64,000 nucleotides of DNA, taken from contig CP092886.1 of NCBI GenBank assembly GCA_030710605.1, positions 166,252,573 through 166,316,572 on the forward strand, read 5' to 3'. Each line of letters begins with the position of its first letter. Within the stretch, counting starts at the first letter, position 1. Of this stretch, positions 2,373-62,632 are shown piece by piece. The notes under the pieces are model-generated. The model made no database searches. It was not told the origin of the DNA and was given only the letters and a program-made list of their open reading frames with translations. This stretch comes from Cordylochernes scorpioides (Eukaryota; Arthropoda; Arachnida; Pseudoscorpiones; Chernetidae). The position numbers were made by a program, and so were the translations under genes.

Positions 2373-3099
2373 ACTAGCCGAATGACCCGGGCAACGCCCG
2401 TGTTTTACCCGATTGAATGTTTTGATTCAAATACTATTTGTTACAATTATAATTTGGCGCCTTAAATAAATGCATATGTTAGTTAATAACTATAGCCTAT
2501 GTGCTTTATCTGTCTTATGTACAGTTGGCTTCCGTAGGCGTCTCTTACTGGGAAAAAGAAAGAGAGGATTCCATTTGGTTATTAACTAATATATGCATTT
2601 ATTTAAGGAGCGACCCACTCCAACACAATAGTTACAGAAATGGGGGGGGGGGGGGGCAAAGGTGGCGTGATCGTAGCCGACCAATAGGAGGGCGCCATTC
2701 AAAAAAAAAAGCAAACCGTGACAGAGGCCGATGAGGAATAATGCTCGTAACTGTATATAGAATGATCTGGCTTTTGTTTTCTGCTCGAATGAATGTTTTT
2801 CTGTTAGAATTTTGTTCCTGAATACAAAATAATGAACTGGTTTCACCCGTGGTCTCTGCTTTTTGGAATTTTTCCCGATATAATTTTGTATTTGATAATC
2901 AAACATGATACAGCAATATCGTCATCATCATTTTCTGACTAAAAATATATAGTTTTAATAATTGATTTATATATTTTTAAAATAGCCTATCGTCTTCCCC
3001 GTATTTTTTTTTACCTATGTATGGATATTTTGGTTTGAATTAGTGAACTACTGCGAATTTGTATACCGGACATACAGACATACAAACATTCATTTATAT
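2373..3099 (-). mobile_element. Helitron-like non-autonomous element, 3' end to near its 5' end
   Basis: Read on the minus strand, the element ends in CTAGT (plus 2373-2377). Just inside the end is a GC-rich hairpin-forming stretch, ACCCGGGCAACGCCCG. The other end carries the TTTGTATGTCTG-rich motif and the TAAATGAATG start typical of arthropod Helitron termini. Two better preserved copies lie at 18100-18629 and 20701-21232. No Rep/helicase ORF is present, so it is non-autonomous. Its first 30 bases are separated from the rest by the ribozyme array at 3100-5027. Confidence 0.7.
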
Positions 3100-3187
3100 T
3101 ATAAAACTATTTTAGAGGCGTTAAATTCTTTTTAAAATAAAACAATTTTTACTGTCCTTACTGCGATGGAAAAATTAAAGGGAGGGC

Positions 3188-3247
3188 CTGGCTCATCAGT
3201 GGTGAACCCTCCCAGCGGTTTCGCCAGTTTAATCTACCATACCGCTG
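3188..3247 (-). ncRNA. Hammerhead core with non-canonical strand order, unit 1
   Basis: On the minus strand three segments follow each other. The first is CAGCGGU-A then UGGUAGA. The second is CUGGC-GAA-ACCGCUG. The third is UUCACCA-CUGAUGA-GCCAG. CAGCGGU pairs with ACCGCUG (stem III, 7 bp). CUGGC pairs with GCCAG (stem II, 5 bp, with the normal G-C closing pair). UGGU pairs with ACCA (stem I, 4 bp, then a mismatch and two more pairs). CUGAUGA, GAAA and the GUA cleavage triplet are all present. The order of the three strands is the reverse of the usual cyclic order, so the fold would be pseudoknotted or need several tandem units. Cleavage is inferred, not shown. Confidence 0.6.
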
Positions 3248-3558
3248 TTATATTGCATTTTTGGAACTTCCTTTTATAGGTGACTGTTGTAAGACTCTTG
3301 GAATGGGTATTTTAGAAGAACTATGGACATAAGCTTTTAGGACAGTAGAATTAAATATATTTATAAATATATAATATGCTTCGAGCAATCGCTCTTCCGC
3401 AAATATCAAATTGTGTCTTTTATTAGAACAATAAGGTTACGATGTACTAGAGCGCCATCTGTTATCAAATTATAAAACTATTTTAGAGGCGTTAAATTCT
3501 TTTTAAAATAAAACAATTTTTACTGTCCTTACTGCGATGGAAAAATTAAAGGGAGGGC

Positions 3559-3618
3559 CTGGCTCATCAGTGGTGAACCCTCCCAGCGGTTTCGCCAGTT
3601 TAATCTACCATACCGCTG
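3559..3618 (-). ncRNA. Non-canonical hammerhead core, unit 2
   Basis: Same 60-nt sequence and pairing as the core at 3188-3247, one 371 bp period later. All core bases are kept. Confidence 0.6.
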
Positions 3619-3920
3619 TTATATTGCATTTTTGGAACTTCCTTTTATAGGTGACTGTTGTAAGACTCTTGGAATGGGTATTTTAGAAGAACTATGGACA
3701 TAAGCTTTTAGGACAGTAGAATTAAATATAATTATAAATATATAATATGCTTCGAGCAATCGCTCTTCCGCAAATATCAAATTGTGTCTTTTATTAGAAC
3801 AATAATGTTACGATGTACTAGAGCGCCATCTGTTATCAAATTATAAAACTATTTTAGAGGCGTTAAATTCTTTTTAAAATAAAACAATTTTTACTGTCAT
3901 GGAAAAATTAAAGGGAGGGC

Positions 3921-3980
3921 CTGGCTCATCAGTGGTGAACCCTCCCAGCGGTTTCGCCAGTTTAATCTACCATACCGCTG
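3921..3980 (-). ncRNA. Non-canonical hammerhead core, unit 3
   Basis: Identical core in the unit that lost about nine bases just before it. The deletion lies outside the three paired segments. Confidence 0.6.
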
Positions 3981-4291
3981 TTATATTGCATTTTTGGAAC
4001 TTCCTTTTATAGGTGACTGTTGTAAGACTCTTGGAATGGGTATTTTAGAAGAACTATGGACATAAGCTTTTAGGACAGTAGAATTAAATATAATTATAAA
4101 TATATAATATGCTTCGAGCAATCGCTCTTCCGCAAATATCAAATTGTGTCTTTTATTAGAACAATAATGTTACGATGTACTAGAGCGCCATCTGTTATCA
4201 AATTATAAAACTATTTTAGAGGCGTTAAATTCTTTTTAAAATAAAACAATTTTTACTGTCCTTACTGCGATGGAAAAATTAAAGGGAGGGC

Positions 4292-4351
4292 CTGGCTCAT
4301 CAGTGGTGAACCCTCCCAGCGGTTTCGCCAGTTTAATCTACCATACCGCTG
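4292..4351 (-). ncRNA. Non-canonical hammerhead core, unit 4
   Basis: Identical core in the last direct unit, which is cut short by the inversion point near 4474. Confidence 0.6.
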
Positions 4352-4483
4352 TTATATTGCATTTTTGGAACTTCCTTTCATAGGTGACTGTTGTAAGACT
4401 CTTGGAATGGGTATTTTAGAAGAACTATGGACATAAGCTTTTAGGACAGTAGAATTAAATATAATTATAAATATGCAATATAA

Positions 4484-4543
4484 CAGCGGTATGGTAGATT
4501 AAACTGGCGAAACCGCTGGGAGGGTTCACCACTGATGAGCCAG
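4484..4543 (+). ncRNA. Non-canonical hammerhead core, inverted unit 1
   Basis: Same core, now on the plus strand because this half of the array is inverted. It lies about 10 bases after the inversion junction. Confidence 0.6.
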
Positions 4544-4854
4544 GCCCTCCCTTTAATTTTTCCATCGCAGTAAGGACAGTAAAAATTGTTTTATTTTAAA
4601 AAGAATTTAACGCCTCTAAAATAGTTTTATAATTTGATAACAGATGGCGCTCTAGTACATCGTAACATTATTGTTCTAATAAAAGACACAATTTGATATT
4701 TGCGGAAGAGCGATTGCTCGAAGCATATTATATATTTATAATTATATTTATTTCTACTGTCCTAAAAGCTTATGTCCATAGTTCTTCTAAAATACCCATT
4801 CCAAGAGTCTTACAACAGTCACCTATAAAAGGAAGTTCCAAAAATGCAATATAA

Positions 4855-4914
4855 CAGCGGTATGGTAGATTAAACTGGCGAAACCGCTGGGAGGGTTCAC
4901 CACTGATGAGCCAG
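4855..4914 (+). ncRNA. Non-canonical hammerhead core, inverted unit 2
   Basis: Same core on the plus strand, 371 bases after the previous inverted copy. The unit ends at 5027, where the target-site duplication begins. Confidence 0.6.
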
Positions 4915-5041
4915 GCCCTCCCTTTAATTTTTCCATCGCAGTAAGGACAGTAAAAATTGTTTTATTTTAAAAAGAATTTAACGCCTCTAAAATAGTTTTA
5001 TAATTTGATAACAGATGGCGCTCTAGTACATTCATTTATAT

Positions 5042-17992: not shown

Positions 17993-18063
17993 GCATCGGT
18001 GGTTCAGTGGTAGAATGCTCGCCTGCCACGCGGGCGGCCAGGGTTCGATTCCCGGCCGATGCA
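17993..18063 (+). tRNA. tRNA-Gly(GCC), copy 1
   Basis: A 71-nt cloverleaf. Acceptor stem GCATCGG pairs with CCGATGC. The D-arm carries the A box (TGGTTCAGTGG), and the anticodon loop CTGCCAC has anticodon GCC at 18025-18027. The T-arm GGGTTCGATTCCC is the B box. It is followed by a run of nine T, a polymerase III terminator. No mismatches in any stem, so it looks functional. It lies just before a Helitron-like element and is duplicated at 20594. Confidence 0.95.
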
Positions 18064-20593: not shown

Positions 20594-20664
20594 GCATCGG
20601 TGGTTCAGTGGTAGAATGCTCGCCTGCCACGCGGGCGGCCAGGGTTCGATTCCCGGCCGATGCA
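20594..20664 (+). tRNA. tRNA-Gly(GCC), copy 2
   Basis: Identical in sequence to the gene at 17993-18063, with anticodon GCC, intact stems and a T-run terminator. It comes from the 2.6 kb duplication. Confidence 0.95.
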
Positions 20665-24699: not shown

Positions 24700-24990
24700 G
24701 AAAGAAGGAATTAATCAACACAAAATAACTTTGATGCATTAGTGCGCCATCTGTTATGGAAATTCTAAGTATTATAGATACGTATGATTCTTTCAAAAAA
24801 AATATAAAAAATTCTACTGCTCTTACTGCAATGGAAAAATTATTCGAAAAATACAATATAACAGCGGTATGGTAGATTAAACTGACGAAACCGCTGGTAG
24901 GGTTCACCACTGATGATCCAGGCCCCCCCCCCCTTTATTTTTTCCATTGCAGTAAGGGCATTTGAAATTGTTTATTTTTTTTATTCGAAA
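24700..24990 (+). repeat. Family 2 repeat fragment with inverted ends
   Basis: It contains the GTGCGCCATCTGTTATG box (reverse) and the TGCAATGGAAAAATTA word, then the family 2 core on the plus strand. An oligo-C run follows, then the reverse of TGCAATGGAAA. A partial inverted arrangement of one unit. Confidence 0.6.
24862..24921 (+). ncRNA. Non-canonical hammerhead core, partly decayed
   Basis: Strands CAGCGGU-A-UGGUAGA, CUGAC-GAA-ACCGCUG and UUCACCA-CUGAUGA-UCCAG are present in the family 2 order. Stem III (7 bp) and stem I are kept. Stem II has lost two pairs beside the core, so this copy is probably inactive. Confidence 0.5.
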
Positions 24991-28302: not shown

Positions 28303-29126
28303 CTATGGATTGCTCTATTTTCAATATATATATATTGAACTCCCTACCGTTTCTAGACATAAAATTAACCAGAAACCAAGATAGAATTGAAACTCGAATA
28401 TACCGAAAACCTACCCATACTGGAAGCTATCTGAACTTCAATTCATTTGGTCCCATCCACCATAAAATTTCCGTGGTAAAAACTCTTTCAAAAAGACTAA
28501 CCACACACTTTTCAACAAACGATAACGACACAAAAAAAGAAAGAACCAAGATATTTCAAGAACTACTTAGCAATAATTACCCTAAACCGTTTATCAAAAA
28601 GAATTTCTACAGACTGAGAATATCACCCACAAACAATAGACAAACTTCATCCCAAAACATTTTTTGCTCCCTGCCATACAGCTATGGCTGTGAAAGAATA
28701 GCTAGAAAACTAAAATACTACAATATCACAACAAGATTCCAATCTACCTCGAATCTTAACAACATCCTCCGCCATCCTGATACAAAAAAGGTCACTGAAC
28801 CAAACAATAGAACCAATGTCATATACAAAATACCATGCAAGTCTTGTCAAGCCGTCTACATAGGAGAAACCGGTAAACCATTAATAGAAAGAATCAACCA
28901 GCACAAATCAGCCCTAAAACACCATAACCCGACCTCCTTATTAGTAGATCATGCTCTCATCAATGGCCACATTCCAGACTTTGAAAAAACATCAATAATA
29001 CACCAAGATATAAAAGAAAAGCACAGCAGGCTATTCTTGGAGAGTTGGAGTTCTTTGGAAGACAGAAATAGCATAAACCGAAAGATCGATATACCGGACA
29101 TGTACACACAATTTAGATGCTCCTAG
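28303..29126 (+). pseudogene. Penelope-like element ORF: RT end plus GIY-YIG nuclease, 5'-truncated
   Basis: The 273-codon frame starts inside the RT. LPFLDIKLTRNQDRIETRIY and RKPTHTGSYLNFNS are the conserved end of the Penelope RT. The C-terminal part has VIYKIPCKSCQAVYIGETGK, which is the GIY-YIG nuclease with its CxxC finger, and an RINQHKSALK helix. FLESWSSLEDRNSINR carries the catalytic Glu and the final Asn/Arg block. Full elements have about 800 codons, so two thirds are lost at the 5' side, as is common for this class. The frame itself is intact to its stop. Penelope-like elements carry hammerheads in their terminal repeats and are the proposed partner for retrozymes; that role here is inference. 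Confidence 0.9.
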
Positions 29127-33689: not shown

Positions 33690-34240
33690 TATAAAATAAA
33701 AGCATTTAAAGCGCGAATGTTTCTTTTATACATAATACGAGCTTCTACTGTCCTTACTGCGATGAAAATATATTGGGAGGGCTTGGCTCATCAGTGGTGA
33801 ACCCTCCCAGCGGTTTCGCCAATTTAATCCACCAGACCGCTTCTCAGAGCTCTAATACTGTATTGGATCATTCTGCTTTTATATGCTACACTGAAGGATG
33901 GAATCTTAGAAATGGTTTTCAAGTAAACTATGGACATAAGCTTATAGGACAGTAGAATTATATTCAAATTTTCGCATCGAGCAATGCTCTTCAGCAAACT
34001 ATAAGGACAAGGCCAGTTAGGCATAAATTAATACAAAGCAATAACGCGCCATCTATACATATAAAATAAAAGGATTTAAAGCGCGAATGTTTCTTTTATA
34101 CATAATACGAGCTTCTACTGTCCTATATTTTTCATCGCAGTAAGGACAGTAGAAGCTCGTATTATGTATAAAAGAAACATTCGCGCTTTAAATCCTTTTA
34201 TTTTATATGTATAGATGGCGCGTTATTGCTTTATATATAT
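33690..34240. repeat. Family 2b retrozyme-like unit with inverted end
   Basis: One complete unit of about 360 bp starts at 33690 (AAAGCATTTAAAGCGCGAAT). A second partial copy starts near 34065, and the sequence then folds back on itself near 34135. The ends therefore form a 75 bp hairpin around TCCTATATTTTTCATCGCAG. The CGCGCCATCTATAC box is present at both ends. Confidence 0.75.
33783..33842 (-). ncRNA. Non-canonical hammerhead core with GUC triplet, family 2b
   Basis: On the minus strand: AAGCGGU-C-UGGUGGA, UUGGC-GAA-ACCGCUG, UUCACCA-CUGAUGA-GCCAA. Compared with the 3.1 kb copies, stem II changed from CUGGC/GCCAG to UUGGC/GCCAA, a compensatory change. Stem I gained a C-G pair (now five Watson-Crick pairs plus U-G and U-A). 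The cleavage triplet is GUC, the most favoured form. Stem III keeps six pairs. This is the best single piece of support for the proposed fold. Confidence 0.65.
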
Positions 34241-37563: not shown

Positions 37564-37990
37564 ATAGATGGAAAATATGCCGGGAGGAAATTGATCCATA
37601 GAAGCATAGGGCGCCTCTCCCGTCAAAATAAACGTCAAAATATGACGCCATCTATTGACCGTCACCGCAACTAGCGGCCTCGGGTCGGTGACAAAGCCAC
37701 AACACCAGCTTTGGCAAACTGAGAAACGTCCACCTAGAGACCATGGTTTCGGGCTAATGGCCCTCGTCAGTCTAGGGCGGACTTTATTCCATGAGATCCA
37801 CACAGGATCTAATGGAATCTTCACAATCTACCAAAGAGGTGTTTTGCTGGCAAGGTGGCTGGGCAAAATCTATAGCTAGAATATAGATGGAAAAATTGCC
37901 GGGAGGAAATTGATCCATAGAAGCATAGGGCGCCTCTCCCGTCAAAATAAACGTCAAAAGGGCGAGGCTCCCTATGCTTCTATATACAAC
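37564..37990 (-). repeat. Family 3 retrozyme-like unit, 319 bp, with partial second copy
   Basis: ATAGATGGAAAATATGCCGG at 37564 is repeated at 37883, so one complete unit of 319 bp is followed by about 80 bases of the next. An inverted tail GGCGAGGCTCCCTATGCTTC closes it. It contains the ACGCCATCT box at 37645 and a complete hammerhead. Other fragments: 24426-24600 and 53978-54118. Confidence 0.75.
37733..37776 (-). ncRNA. Type I hammerhead ribozyme, intact, GUC triplet
   Basis: Stem I CCUAGA/UCUAGG (6 bp), CUGACGA, stem II GGGC-CAUUA-GCCC, GAAA, then ACC-AU-GGU as a very short palindromic stem III, and the GUC triplet. Every conserved core base is present. Stems I and III differ completely from the 60 kb ribozymes and still pair perfectly, which is strong covariation support. 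Cleavage is expected after 37739 (minus strand). Confidence 0.9.
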
Positions 37991-38554: not shown

Positions 38555-39000
38555 ATTTTAAAATAAAAGGGCATGGCTCATCAGTGTTGAACCTTCCCAG
38601 TAGTTACAACAGCTCAATCTCCTGGCCGCTCTACTGTCTTATTAGATTTAATTTCCTTATATAGTCAACACCTTTTTTTATGGAATACAGGAAAAGCGTG
38701 TTTAAGAAATTTTGGAGATTCTAGCAGAGCTTCTAGGACTTTAATTAATTCAGGTATATATTTTAACAGTTATAGAATCTTATGTCTATATGGGTTTTTC
38801 TCACACACCTTTTCTCTGTATTCAACAATGAATATAAGATCACATATACCAGTCTAAAGCAATAGCAGAGCGGTATAGAGATTAAACTGGCGAAACCGCT
38901 GGGAGGGTTCATCACTAGTTAAACATACGCTCCCGTTTCGAAAATTTATTATTGCAGTAAAATGTCTGTATAAATAATTATAATTATAGAAAAAGGTTAA
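38555..39000. repeat. Family 2 relic in inverted arrangement
   Basis: The left part (38575-38640) has GGCTCATCAGTGTTGAACCT. The right part (38870-38930) has AGCGGTATAGAGATTAAACT and GGCGAAACCGCTGGGAGGG on the plus strand. CUGAUGA has become CUAGUUA in the right copy. Both cores are decayed. Confidence 0.55.
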
Positions 39001-48243: not shown

Positions 48244-48869
48244 TGGCTTTTCTTGATTTATCAAGAAATTGTGTTGGCCAAATATCAGGGATTAGGCTAA
48301 ATCAATGTTTAGTTGATTTCTGTTCCACCAGATGGCGCTCTGCCTTCTGTAAAGCACATGTGCTCCTGGTCAGGATATGCCATTTTTATTTTTAATATCA
48401 ACTCCTAGCCTTTTTTTCTTTTTTTTTTCTTTTTTCATATATATATATATTTACGTAAATTTGACAGCATATAGAAAAATACTGTCTTAGTTCATGATAT
48501 TCATATTCTAATTAGTCCATTGTGATAATTAAAAGATTTATCGATATTAATATTTTCAAAATAATTTTTTGTCGTTGTTACTCATAAATATTTTAGAAAA
48601 AGATATATTATCAATATTTGTTCGTGGAACCTGCATATGGATATTATCAATATTCCTTTTATTTATATCAAAATTCTTAATATTGTCCTCACATGCGTAA
48701 AAAAACTTAAAGATAGATTATGGTATTTCACTCGAAAATTAGGCTAAAAGATCATCAAGGCGTGTCAATGACAGATCAAGCGAGAACATATTCATATACG
48801 GCCTCAGAATCACTAACAATATACTTTATATATGAAAATTTGAAACTATTATAGAGAGGTATAATTATT

Positions 48870-49300
48870 TTAAAATAAAAATAAAAATTCTACTGCCCTT
48901 ACTGCAATAGAAAAATTAATAGGAGGGCCTGACTCATCAGCGGTGAACCCTCCCATTTATTTTTCCATTGCAGATAGGGCAGTAGAAATTGTTTAATATT
49001 TAAAAGAATCATACGCGTCTATAATAGTTTCGAATTTCATAAAAGATGGCGCGCCAATGCATCATAATACTTTATATATGAGCTGAAAATATAGTTTTCT
49101 GGACCTAGATGCTAGTAGCAAGGTCGAAAATGAACTCGACATTCCCGGTTTACTTCTTTGACGCTAAAAGAAATCCGTTAAGTTGCCCTTATGTGAATCG
49201 ATCCTAATTTTTCCATTGCAGTAAGGACAGTAGAAATTGTTTTATTTTAAAAAGAATATTACGCCTCTAAAATAGTTTTGTAATTTGATCCTAATAATGT
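48870..49300. repeat. Family 2c fragments, inverted
   Basis: TACTGCCCTTACTGCAATAG and GACTCATCAGCGGTGAACCC on the left face TTTTCCATTGCAGATAGGGC on the right. Another end lies at 49205-49295. Only the CUGAUGA strand of the core is kept. The GATGGCGCGCC box is at 49042. Confidence 0.6.
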
Positions 49301-55189: not shown

Positions 55190-55850
55190 TGCAGAAGATT
55201 ATACACCATTATCAAAATTCGAAACTTTTATAGACACATATGATTCTTTTTAAAAATATACAATTTCTACTCCCCTTACTGCAATGGAAAAATTAATGGG
55301 AGAACCTGGCTCATCATTCGTCCAAATATTCATAATACTCAATTTGTTACAAACCACGGAAATTTCAAAAGTTTTTTTAAATAGAATAAAGGCAGTGGAG
55401 GATTCAAGTTGCTTTTGAGGTATTGAGGAACAAACCTCAAGACATCTACTGATCGATTGCCCAGCATTTCAAGATTATAGAATGAAGAATGAACTAGTTG
55501 TTTGTGAACTTAACGATTTGATTTCCGATTAAAAAATCATATTTAAAGTTCAATTCATTTTGTAAATACATTCTGAACTTTCTACAAAATCTGAATCTCT
55601 AATGTTTTCATGCGTTGAATAATGTAAATAACTTATGTAAATAAACTTTTCTCCTTGTTTTGCGCAAGTATCCCTTGCGGGATATAGCGCTTTGGAAATA
55701 AAATAATTGTAATTGTAATCATTAATTTTTCCATTGCAGTAAGGACAGTAGAAATTGTTTATATTCGAAAAGAATCATACGCGTCTATAATAGTTTCGAA
55801 TTTTGATAACAGATGGCGCGCTAATGCATCATAATACACCATTATCCTTT
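55190..55850. repeat. Family 2c inverted unit split by a LINE tail
   Basis: Left: TCGAAACTTTTATAGACACA, CTTACTGCAATGGAAAAATT and CCTGGCTCATCATTCG. Right: the complement, from TTTTTCCATTGCAGTAAGGA to GATAACAGATGGCGCGCTAA. Between them lies the LINE tail at about 55320-55722. Confidence 0.65.
55320..55724 (+). pseudogene. LINE 3' end
   Basis: Shifted frames resemble the C-terminal finger region of the copy at 33185 (NHGNFKSFF, then a DRLPSISRL-like block). The 3' end has CCCTTGCGGGATATAGCGC and AAATAAAATAATTGTAATTG, matching the end of that copy. Confidence 0.55.
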
Positions 55851-60165: not shown

Positions 60166-60324
60166 TATATATATATATAAAAAATAGCATATCCTGACCA
60201 GGAGCACATGTGCTTTACAGAAGGCAGAGCGCCATCTGGTGGAACAGAAATCAACTAAACATTGATTTTAACCTGTTCCCTGATATTTGGCCAACCCAAT
60301 TTCTTGATAAATCAAGAAAAGCCA

Positions 60325-60367
60325 TCCACGAACGCGTTTCGCGCTTTTTGGCGCTCGTCAGCGTGGA
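60325..60367 (-). ncRNA. Type I hammerhead ribozyme, array unit 1
   Basis: On the minus strand UCCACG-CUGACGA, stem II GCGC-CAAAAA-GCGC, GAAA, then C-GC-G-U-U, then CGUGGA. Stem I has 6 bp and stem II 4 bp. Stem III is only A-U and C-G around a two-base loop, and being palindromic it could pair between two copies. The triplet is GUU. Confidence 0.9.
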
Positions 60368-60675
60368 GTAGGCTGAACCATTGAGACCAAAAAATATTTT
60401 TTGATCCCAATGGCCTCCTGAAAAACCAAGAAATGGGTATTTAAGGCCAAACTTGCGTAAATACGCTTAGCACATTAAAAAACGAAATAAAAAAATAAAA
60501 GATAAAAAGATCAGGTGTTGAAATCAATATAAAAAATAGCATATCCTGACCAGGAGCACATGTGCTTTACAGAAGGCAGAGCGCCATCTGGTGGAACAGA
60601 AATCAACTAAACATTGATTTAACCTGTTCCCTGATATTTGGCCAACCCAATTTCTTGATAAATCAAGAAAAGCCA

Positions 60676-60718
60676 TCCACGAACGCGTTTCGCGCTTTTT
60701 GGCGCTCGTCAGCGTGGA
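60676..60718 (-). ncRNA. Type I hammerhead ribozyme, array unit 2
   Basis: Identical to unit 1. Confidence 0.9.
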
Positions 60719-61026
60719 GTAGGCTGAACCATTGAGACCAAAAAATATTTTTTGATCCCAATGGCCTCCTGAAAAACCAAGAAATGGGTATTTAAGGCCA
60801 AACTTGCGTAAATACGCTTAGCACATTAAAAAACGAAATAAAAAAATAAAAGATAAAAAGATCAGGTGTTGAAATCAATATAAAAAATAGCATATCCTGA
60901 CCAGGAGCACATGTGCTTTACAGAAGGCAGAGCGCCATCTGGTGGAACAGAAATCAACTAAACATTGATTTAACCTGTTCCCTGATATTTGGCCAACCCA
61001 ATTTCTTGATAAATCAAGAAAAGCCA

Positions 61027-61069
61027 TCCACGAACGCGTTTCGCGCTTTTTGGCGCTCGTCAGCGTGGA
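61027..61069 (-). ncRNA. Type I hammerhead ribozyme, array unit 3
   Basis: Identical to unit 1. Confidence 0.9.
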
Positions 61070-61377
61070 GTAGGCTGAACCATTGAGACCAAAAAATATT
61101 TTTTGATCCCAATGGCCTCCTGAAAAACCAAGAAATGGGTATTTAAGGCCAAACTTGCGTAAATACGCTTAGCACATTAAAAAACGAAATAAAAAAATAA
61201 AAGATAAAAAGATCAGGTGTTGAAATCAATATAAAAAATAGCATATCCTGACCAGGAGCACATGTGCTTTACAGAAGGCAGAGCGCCATCTGGTGGAACA
61301 GAAATCAACTAAACATTGATTTAACCTGTTCCCTGATATTTGGCCAACCCAATTTCTTGATAAATCAAGAAAAGCCA

Positions 61378-61420
61378 TCCACGAACGCGTTTCGCGCTTT
61401 TTGGCGCTCGTCAGCGTGGA
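61378..61420 (-). ncRNA. Type I hammerhead ribozyme, array unit 4
   Basis: Identical to unit 1. Confidence 0.9.
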
Positions 61421-61728
61421 GTAGGCTGAACCATTGAGACCAAAAAATATTTTTTGATCCCAATGGCCTCCTGAAAAACCAAGAAATGGGTATTTAAGGC
61501 CAAACTTGCGTAAATACGCTTAGCACATTAAAAAACGAAATAAAAAAATAAAAGATAAAAAGATCAGGTGTTGAAATCAATATAAAAAATAGCATATCCT
61601 GACCAGGAGCACATGTGCTTTACAGAAGGCAGAGCGCCATCTGGTGGAACAGAAATCAACTAAACATTGATTTAACCTGTTCCCTGATATTTGGCCAACC
61701 CAATTTCTTGATAAATCAAGAAAAGCCA

Positions 61729-61771
61729 TCCACGAACGCGTTTCGCGCTTTTTGGCGCTCGTCAGCGTGGA
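61729..61771 (-). ncRNA. Type I hammerhead ribozyme, array unit 5
   Basis: Identical to unit 1. Confidence 0.9.
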
Positions 61772-62017
61772 GTAGGCTGAACCATTGAGACCAAAAAATA
61801 TTTTTTGATCCCAATGGCCTCCTGAAAAACCAAGAAATGGGTATTTAAGGCCAAACTTGCGTAAATACGCTTAGCACATTAAAAAACGAAATAAAAAAAT
61901 AAAAGATAAAAAGATCAGGTGTTGAAATCAATATAAAAAATAGCATACCCATTTCTTGGTTTTTCAGGAGGCCATTGGGATCAAAAAATATTTTTTGGTC
62001 TCAATGGTTCAGCCTAC

Positions 62018-62060
62018 TCCACGCTGACGAGCGCCAAAAAGCGCGAAACGCGTTCGTGGA
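62018..62060 (+). ncRNA. Type I hammerhead ribozyme, inverted unit 1
   Basis: Same sequence on the plus strand, 71 bases after the inversion point. Confidence 0.9.
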
Positions 62061-62368
62061 TGGCTTTTCTTGATTTATCAAGAAATTGGGTTGGCCAAAT
62101 ATCAGGGAACAGGTTAAATCAATGTTTAGTTGATTTCTGTTCCACCAGATGGCGCTCTGCCTTCTGTAAAGCACATGTGCTCCTGGTCAGGATATGCTAT
62201 TTTTTATATTGATTTCAACACCTGATCTTTTTATCTTTTATTTTTTTATTTCGTTTTTTAATGTGCTAAGCGTATTTACGCAAGTTTGGCCTTAAATACC
62301 CATTTCTTGGTTTTTCAGGAGGCCATTGGGATCAAAAAATATTTTTTGGTCTCAATGGTTCAGCCTAC

Positions 62369-62411
62369 TCCACGCTGACGAGCGCCAAAAAGCGCGAAAC
62401 GCGTTCGTGGA
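62369..62411 (+). ncRNA. Type I hammerhead ribozyme, inverted unit 2
   Basis: Same sequence on the plus strand, 351 bases after the previous one. Confidence 0.9.
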
Positions 62412-62632
62412 TGGCTTTTCTTGATTTATCAAGAAATTGGGTTGGCCAAATATCAGGGAACAGGTTAAATCAATGTTTAGTTGATTTCTGTTCCACCAGA
62501 TGGCGCTCTGCCTTCTGTAAAGCACATGTGCTCCTGGTCAGGATATGCTATTTTTTATATTGATTTCAACACCTGATCTTTTTTTATCTTTTATTTTTTT
62601 TATTTCGTTTTTTAATATATATATATATATAT

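Follow-up and report, generated by a model that had tools for sequence, protein, structure and literature searches.

A predicted type-SGC hammerhead ribozyme within a retrozyme-like element of the pseudoscorpion Cordylochernes scorpioides

Results

An inserted array of a 371-bp element

The window, by which we mean the whole stretch of 64,000 nucleotides of the Cordylochernes scorpioides genome under analysis, contains at 3100-5027 an inserted array of a 371-bp element in which a core of 68 nt, here assigned to the type-SGC hammerheads, is repeated six times. Four copies are on the reverse strand (3180-3247, 3551-3618, 3913-3980 and 4284-4351) and two on the forward strand (4484-4551, taken as the reference copy, and 4855-4922), which places an inversion of the array near 4466, a feature absent from the earlier note on this DNA; over their 68 nt the six cores show no difference. 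The limits of the array are exact because a 14-bp direct repeat, ACATTCATTTATAT, is found on both sides as a target-site duplication (left copy 3086-3099, right copy 5028-5041), so that the boundaries proposed in the earlier note are correct to the nucleotide, and the array is a single insertion. The four units measured from cut site to cut site have lengths of 371, 371, 362 and 371 bp, the 362-bp unit being the result of a 9-bp deletion. An TATAAAAG box, located at 4824-4831 (+) upstream of the second forward copy, precedes four of the six array copies (4824 on the forward strand; 4011, 3649 and 3278 on the reverse strand) and also stands at 33883 (-). Near the array ribozyme, a TATA box is situated upstream and a TTTTT run just downstream, and the promoter of the element may be of the Pol III type. 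The identification of the sequence as a Pol III small-RNA gene was considered and set aside, as it leaves the tandem arrays and the hammerhead boxes unexplained.

Architecture of the core

The nomenclature of Eckert et al (2023; PMC10085705) recognises three blocks of the hammerhead, S for the site, G for GAAA and C for CUGAnGA, and the order of the blocks in the array core, from 5' to 3', is site, GAAA, CUGAUGA. On the forward strand of the reference copy, the 3' strand of stem III (CAGCGGU, 4484-4490), whose last base is U16.1, is followed by H17, an A at 4491, with predicted cleavage directly 3' of it, then by the 5' strand of stem I (UGGU, 4492-4495), the 3' strand of stem II (CUGGC, 4504-4508) and GAA with the 5' strand of stem III (ACCGCUG) at 4509-4518. 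The 5' strand of a fourth stem (GGAGGG, 4519-4524) begins 0 nt after stem III and is followed by the 3' strand of stem I (ACCA, 4528-4531), the CUGAUGA box (4532-4538), the 5' strand of stem II (GCCAG, 4539-4543) and the 3' strand of stem IV (CCCUCC, 4545-4550). Within the core at 4484-4551, GGAGGGUUC occupies the interval between ACCGCUG and ACCA, and GCCAG is followed by G and then by CCCUCCC. Stem III is formed of 7 bp (CAGCGGU/ACCGCUG), stem II of 5 bp (CUGGC/GCCAG) and stem I of 4 bp (UGGU/ACCA), and the triplet is GUA. The hammerhead pieces and the stems of 7, 5 and 4 or more bp that had been described for each unit of about 371 bp are all present, in the stated order, in the six array copies. 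The S-G-C order is a non-circular permutation that departs from the cyclic C-G-S order of types I, II and III, as had been claimed. However, the accompanying assertion that no example had been described does not stand, the same order having been reported as type SGC (Eckert et al, 2023; PMC10085705).

The fourth helix, GGAGGG/CCCUCC, which the earlier note had not mentioned, ties together the tips of stems I and II. The link between these two stems had been given as 5 nt; it measures 8 nt when stem I is counted at 4 bp and is reduced to 5 nt if stem I continues past an A.C mismatch with two more pairs. The lowest-energy nested fold of the 68 nt corresponds essentially to two hairpins, those of stems III and IV, with small additional pairs in the loops (z -3.2, -2.2 and -2.7), and stems I and II are the two hairpin loops paired with each other. 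On the basis of the sequence, the core is best read as one molecule folded into a pseudoknot, with stems I and II joined at their tips. The predicted two-hairpin fold also speaks for another interpretation, according to which a non-catalytic pair of kissing-loop hairpins would act as a binding site or a replication signal and the hammerhead boxes would be incidental.

The claim that standard models would miss this core is borne out by the Rfam scan of the array, in which no hammerhead model matches at the gathering score or at E<=10. The top match over the array is a microRNA model with 46.5 of 140 bits, far under its cut-off, which we take to be a chance match on an AT-rich inverted repeat. 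The patterns of the HDV-like, pistol and twister ribozymes, taken from their consensus, do not fit when compared by eye.

Rarity of the pattern and dispersed copies in the window

A descriptor that combines a legal triplet, GAAA, CUGANGA and at least 4 bp per stem in the S-G-C order matches the window seven times, namely at the six array copies and at a diverged copy at 33835 (-). The same descriptor returns three matches in 60 Mb of random sequence generated by a first-order Markov model with the composition of the window, and none of these three has a stem III of at least 6 bp, a stem II of at least 5 bp and a fourth stem of at least 6 bp; a separate Markov-1 sequence of 10 Mb contains one match.

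Five relatives of the core are dispersed in the window at E<=1e-5, in addition to a weaker one near 55300. The copy at 33775-33842 (-), which belongs to a subfamily B, is intact and diverged. The copy at 24862-24929 (+) has a broken stem II (CUGAC/UCCAG) and is probably decayed, and two further copies look decayed through the loss of CUGAUGA (38868-38934, +) or of GAAA (38565-38624, -). The last, at 48921-48970 (-), is a palindromic derivative that possesses only the CUGAUGA hairpin, i.e. stem IV with block C. The 371-bp unit also has long palindromic relatives, located at about 34037-34230 and 48831-49067 and, in one of the genomic stretches described below, at L040:7220-7316; some of them are devoid of the ribozyme and some have the CUGAUGA hairpin alone, in a central position.

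The intact copy at 33775-33842 differs from the array copy at 5 of 68 positions, and its stems I, II and III have 8, 5 and 6 bp, the first two being separated by a link of 4-5 nt. Stem III has lost its outer pair, A17 is replaced by C to give GUC, which is again a legal triplet, a change of A to G converts the mismatch of stem I into a pair, and a C-G pair of stem II is replaced by U-A, so that UUGGC/GCCAA is compensated. In total, 24 of 25 pairs form in both copies, and 1.0% of the trials with five substitutions placed at random equal this pairing and leave the core intact. The flanks of this copy have changed at 76 of 293 aligned positions, compared with 5 of 68 in the core (Fisher p 6e-4). 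Over five rows, comprising the array core and the four dispersed copies other than the partial one, covariation is not significant, the value being reached in 236 of 500 shuffles. It could be argued that short motifs have been grouped by chance within a repeat, and CUGANGA by itself is indeed common in the window. We regard this explanation as scarcely credible in view of the seven descriptor matches in 64 kb set against three in 60 Mb, the compensated changes and a core that diverges more slowly than its flanks.

Copies across the genome

The search was extended to the chromosome-scale 2.62-Gb assembly, which comprises 24 contigs. It contains at least 150 matches to PF00379, a cuticle domain that marks arthropods, compared with none in 14 control genomes, as expected of an arthropod. 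A DNA query gave at least 54 matches, with 40 of 244 candidates scored, and thirty loci (L001-L030) were chosen from it by their likeness to the array copy. These were complemented by 20 stretches of 10 kb (L031-L050), of which 4 adjoin the window and 16 are spread over the contigs. A scan of these fifty sequences with a two-hairpin model yielded 81 matches at E<=0.01, including 11 in 7 of the 16 spread stretches. The exact sequence GAAACCNCTGNNAGGGTTCANNNCTGATGAG, which represents the G-C half of the core, is found 61,168 times in the genome (30,604 forward and 30,564 reverse), compared with 0 for the reversed pattern. The 67-nt core of subfamily B is present in 10,069 exact full-length copies, and the first places listed for it include 372-bp tandem runs with strand flips, for example at C1:7156388-7161972. 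Sequence patterns had 0 matches in four scans of the viral_contigs and genome_contigs collections.

Among the thirty loci, cores are arranged singly, in tandem at about 371 bp or in head-to-head inverted arrays. These layouts bear on the proposal of the earlier note that the RNA either folds as a pseudoknot or assembles from several units, the second option being equivalent to a canonical type III hammerhead formed across tandem units, with the site and CUGAUGA provided by one unit, GAAA by the next, and a giant loop II of about 300 nt. A tandem transcript does have the strands in the order that such an assembly needs. However, intact cores also exist at loci where one core alone was found (L004, L010, L021 and L026), GAAA is located at a working distance inside the same 68 nt, and stem IV connects stems I and II within one unit and has a compensated change. 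We consider the type III assembly to be very improbable; it is unneeded in view of these loci and of a fold that closes within 68 nt, and it is the pseudoknot half of the proposal that is retained as the best reading.

Direct repeats of 12-14 bp are present near both ends of 12 of 34 element runs, as in retrotransposition, to which we would compare them by analogy. These runs are those of L001 (the window), L002, L006, L009, L011-L015, L024 and L025 and one run of L027; the repeats of L009 and L014 consist of A/T only and are weaker. One direct repeat is common to L012, L024 and L025, which are probably one insertion copied later. In 16 of the 48 starts in L001-L030, a share that is biased upward because the query held such a junction, a sequence different from the usual upstream one of the unit, either host DNA or another part of the element at a junction, directly precedes (T)ATGCAATATAACAGCGG. 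This boundary precedes the predicted cut by about 23 nt and comes shortly after the position of the TATAAAAG box in complete units, and we infer that a transcript start fits it better than a ribozyme end. That many copies start about 23 nt upstream of the cut site, and not at the cut site, speaks against the explanation favoured in the Discussion.

The circular minimum free energy of one 371-bp unit corresponds to a z-score of -0.7, i.e. there is no unusual self-pairing, compared with -7.1 for the unit of a second array in the window. This low predicted self-pairing of the unit circle speaks against a full likeness to retrozymes.

An ORF with a GIY-YIG domain is present at 28305-29126 in the window, where other reverse transcriptases are also found; we take this domain to be typical of Penelope-like retroelements.

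Covariation and subfamilies

The main alignment (A4) comprises 80 matches at E<=1e-9 from the window and the loci, which reduce to 34 distinct rows; the weaker matches at E<=0.01, of which the loci contribute 10 and the window 2, are excluded, and the alignment model is blind to stems I and II. As L001-L030 had been selected for their resemblance to the array copy, one sequence accounts for 40 of the 80 matches. In this alignment 90.6% of the cells pair, 19 cells are changed on both sides and the covariation score is 0.116, values each reached by 0 of 500 shuffles, a comparison in which relatedness alone can beat the shuffles. Two further measures are not significant, namely the count of pairs in which both sides are changed (234 of 500 shuffles) and that of pair types (400 of 500). 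Stem IV is paired in 96.1% of its cells, with one compensated change. Stem III has G-U changes that affect one side at a time, and a single row has both sides of the outermost pair changed; that pair does not form in 13 of the 34 rows.

Three subfamilies can be distinguished, namely A (the array), B (the copy ending at 33842) and C (L032:5362-5428, L039 and L029). Subfamily C differs from the array by nine substitutions and one deletion, and six of the nine substitutions make three compensated pairs: pair 10-47 of stem I (G-C to A-U), pair 21-60 of stem II (C-G to U-A, a change common to subfamily B) and pair 36-67 of stem IV (G-C to A-U). Random draws of nine substitutions yield three or more compensated pairs 267 times in 1,000,000, subfamily C having been tested after it was seen. 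The covariation signal of A4 is that of three events common to subfamilies. When the covariation check suggested in the earlier note was run on the homologues, a single compensated double change separating subfamilies was seen in each of stems I, II and IV, and stem III has the changes described above. A copy at L047:4417-4501 has a poly-A expansion within the link between stems I and II.

The whole core is kept in 73 of the 80 matches, corresponding to 27 of the 34 distinct rows, the other seven being damaged or gapped. In the 73 whole cores, position 17 is A in 64 and C in 9, so that the triplet is GUA or GUC, and G17 is found in none of the 80 matches. These observations bear on the non-catalytic pair of kissing-loop hairpins, which would also account for the palindromic derivatives that retain the second hairpin alone (48921-48970, L034 and L040). 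However, such a pair offers no reason for the joint retention of GAAA, CUGAnGA and a legal triplet in 73 of 80 matches, for the presence of A or C and never G at position 17, or for boxes located exactly where the three stems demand them, and we judge it to be improbable.

Discussion

The sequence evidence leads us to propose, with high confidence, that the 68-nt element is a self-cleaving hammerhead of type SGC, cut at the predicted site and carried by a retrozyme-like, non-autonomous mobile element. In every defining feature that can be tested from sequence, the core agrees with type SGC, the exception being the longer link between stems I and II in the array copy. The type-SGC hammerheads were found via RNAs with hairpin ribozymes, and the type SGC or HRIMA-1 motif and its variants encompass 583 predicted sequences, five of which cleaved as expected in vitro; in one type-SGC RNA, each of the four stems was broken and restored experimentally (Eckert et al, 2023; PMC10085705). 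In these RNAs, a helix ties stems I and II, the linker between which typically has three nucleotides, and a few members have 0 nt between stem III and the tip-joining helix (PMC10085705). The array core has in common with them the S-G-C order, all conserved core nucleotides, stems I-III, the tip-joining helix and the 0-nt link after stem III, and differs by its link of 8 nt between stems I and II, compared with typically 3 (PMC10085705). A pseudoknot that fixes the side of helices I and II of a hammerhead core, as here, has been described by Zhan et al (2024; PMC11300833), where it joins a loop at helix II to a stem-loop on helix I, which is not the arrangement observed here; the string 'permut' is absent from the article.

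The setting is also different. Nearly all motifs of Eckert et al (2023) are exclusive to metatranscriptomes, and no RNAs were found in the genomes of known organisms, save one candidate of another order (PMC10085705). Type SGC had no known host in that work (PMC10085705), whereas here it is located in arthropod chromosomes, in at least ten thousand full copies and within a mobile element. In the open-access literature searched, none of the matches listed describes type SGC in the genome of an animal, and the articles that cite or name PMC10085705 are the paper itself and two on structure-alignment tools. The strand order is already known, and the animal-genome setting is new within the literature searched.

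A possible life cycle can be outlined as follows. Stem III would constitute the 5' hairpin, whose 21-nt loop would pair with the loop of the stem IV hairpin via stems I and II, so that the core would close as a pseudoknot with the tips of stems I and II clamped by stem IV. Cleavage after GUA or GUC in tandem transcripts would be expected to release unit-length RNAs of about 371 nt, which may then be ligated and are probably circularised, as proposed for animal retrozymes by Cervera and de la Pena (2020; PMC7229834). Reverse transcription by the reverse transcriptase of another element could be followed by reinsertion, and the reinserted copies would be single, tandem or inverted and bordered by target-site duplications of 12-14 bp. 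The metazoan non-LTR retrozymes have type I hammerheads and tandem repeats of about 170-400 nt (PMC7229834). On this description, they share with the present element short tandem units, one hammerhead in each unit and an invertebrate genome; the element is unlike them in that its hammerhead is of type SGC and non-circularly permuted, and in that its predicted unit circle is not highly self-paired (PMC7229834).

If this proposition is correct, type-SGC hammerheads would acquire a host organism, a known form within a genome and a wealth of variants from which to trace their evolution. The functioning of the permuted fold in an animal cell, and the origin and spread of the non-circular permutation, would become directly testable. 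It would also point to a blind spot, namely that the Rfam hammerhead models are silent on a predicted ribozyme with at least ten thousand complete copies.

A second array with canonical hammerheads and other features of the window

The second array, at 60175-62600, consists of 351-bp units with a canonical type I hammerhead in inverted tandem, and seven copies match Rfam HH9 with 38.0 bits (E 1.9e-7; cut-off 52). Elsewhere in the window, a descriptor of canonical order matches at 37739 (-), 48237, 57748 (-) and 57908; the site at 37739 (-) has the canonical order with different stem sequences. The type I hammerheads of the array at 60175-62600 and the dispersed descriptor matches are all under the Rfam gathering score. 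The two arrays share the same genome, the inverted layout and one AGATGGCGC motif per unit, and they differ in that the second has the C-G-S order of type I and a strongly self-paired unit; no sequence similarity is found between them beyond an AT-rich stretch. It can be tentatively hypothesised, at a little below an even chance in our estimation, that a single retrozyme-like platform exists in two versions, type I and SGC, that the topology of its ribozyme is exchangeable, and that permuted hammerheads are native to animal genomes and highly amplified in them, beyond a presence in RNA replicons of unknown nature.

The window contains 28 occurrences of the AGATGGCGC motif or its complement (e.g. 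at 4642, 5013, 60229 and 62147), compared with 0.14 expected. Each unit of either ribozyme family contains the motif once, and it is also situated near the ends of palindromic elements. It presumably resembles the insect CTCF motif, and the 15 of 407 matches listed in the literature search on the motif contain nothing on repeats. Two identical tRNA genes, at 17993-18063 and 20594-20664, lie 2.6 kb apart in a duplicated stretch, with an anticodon read as GCC.
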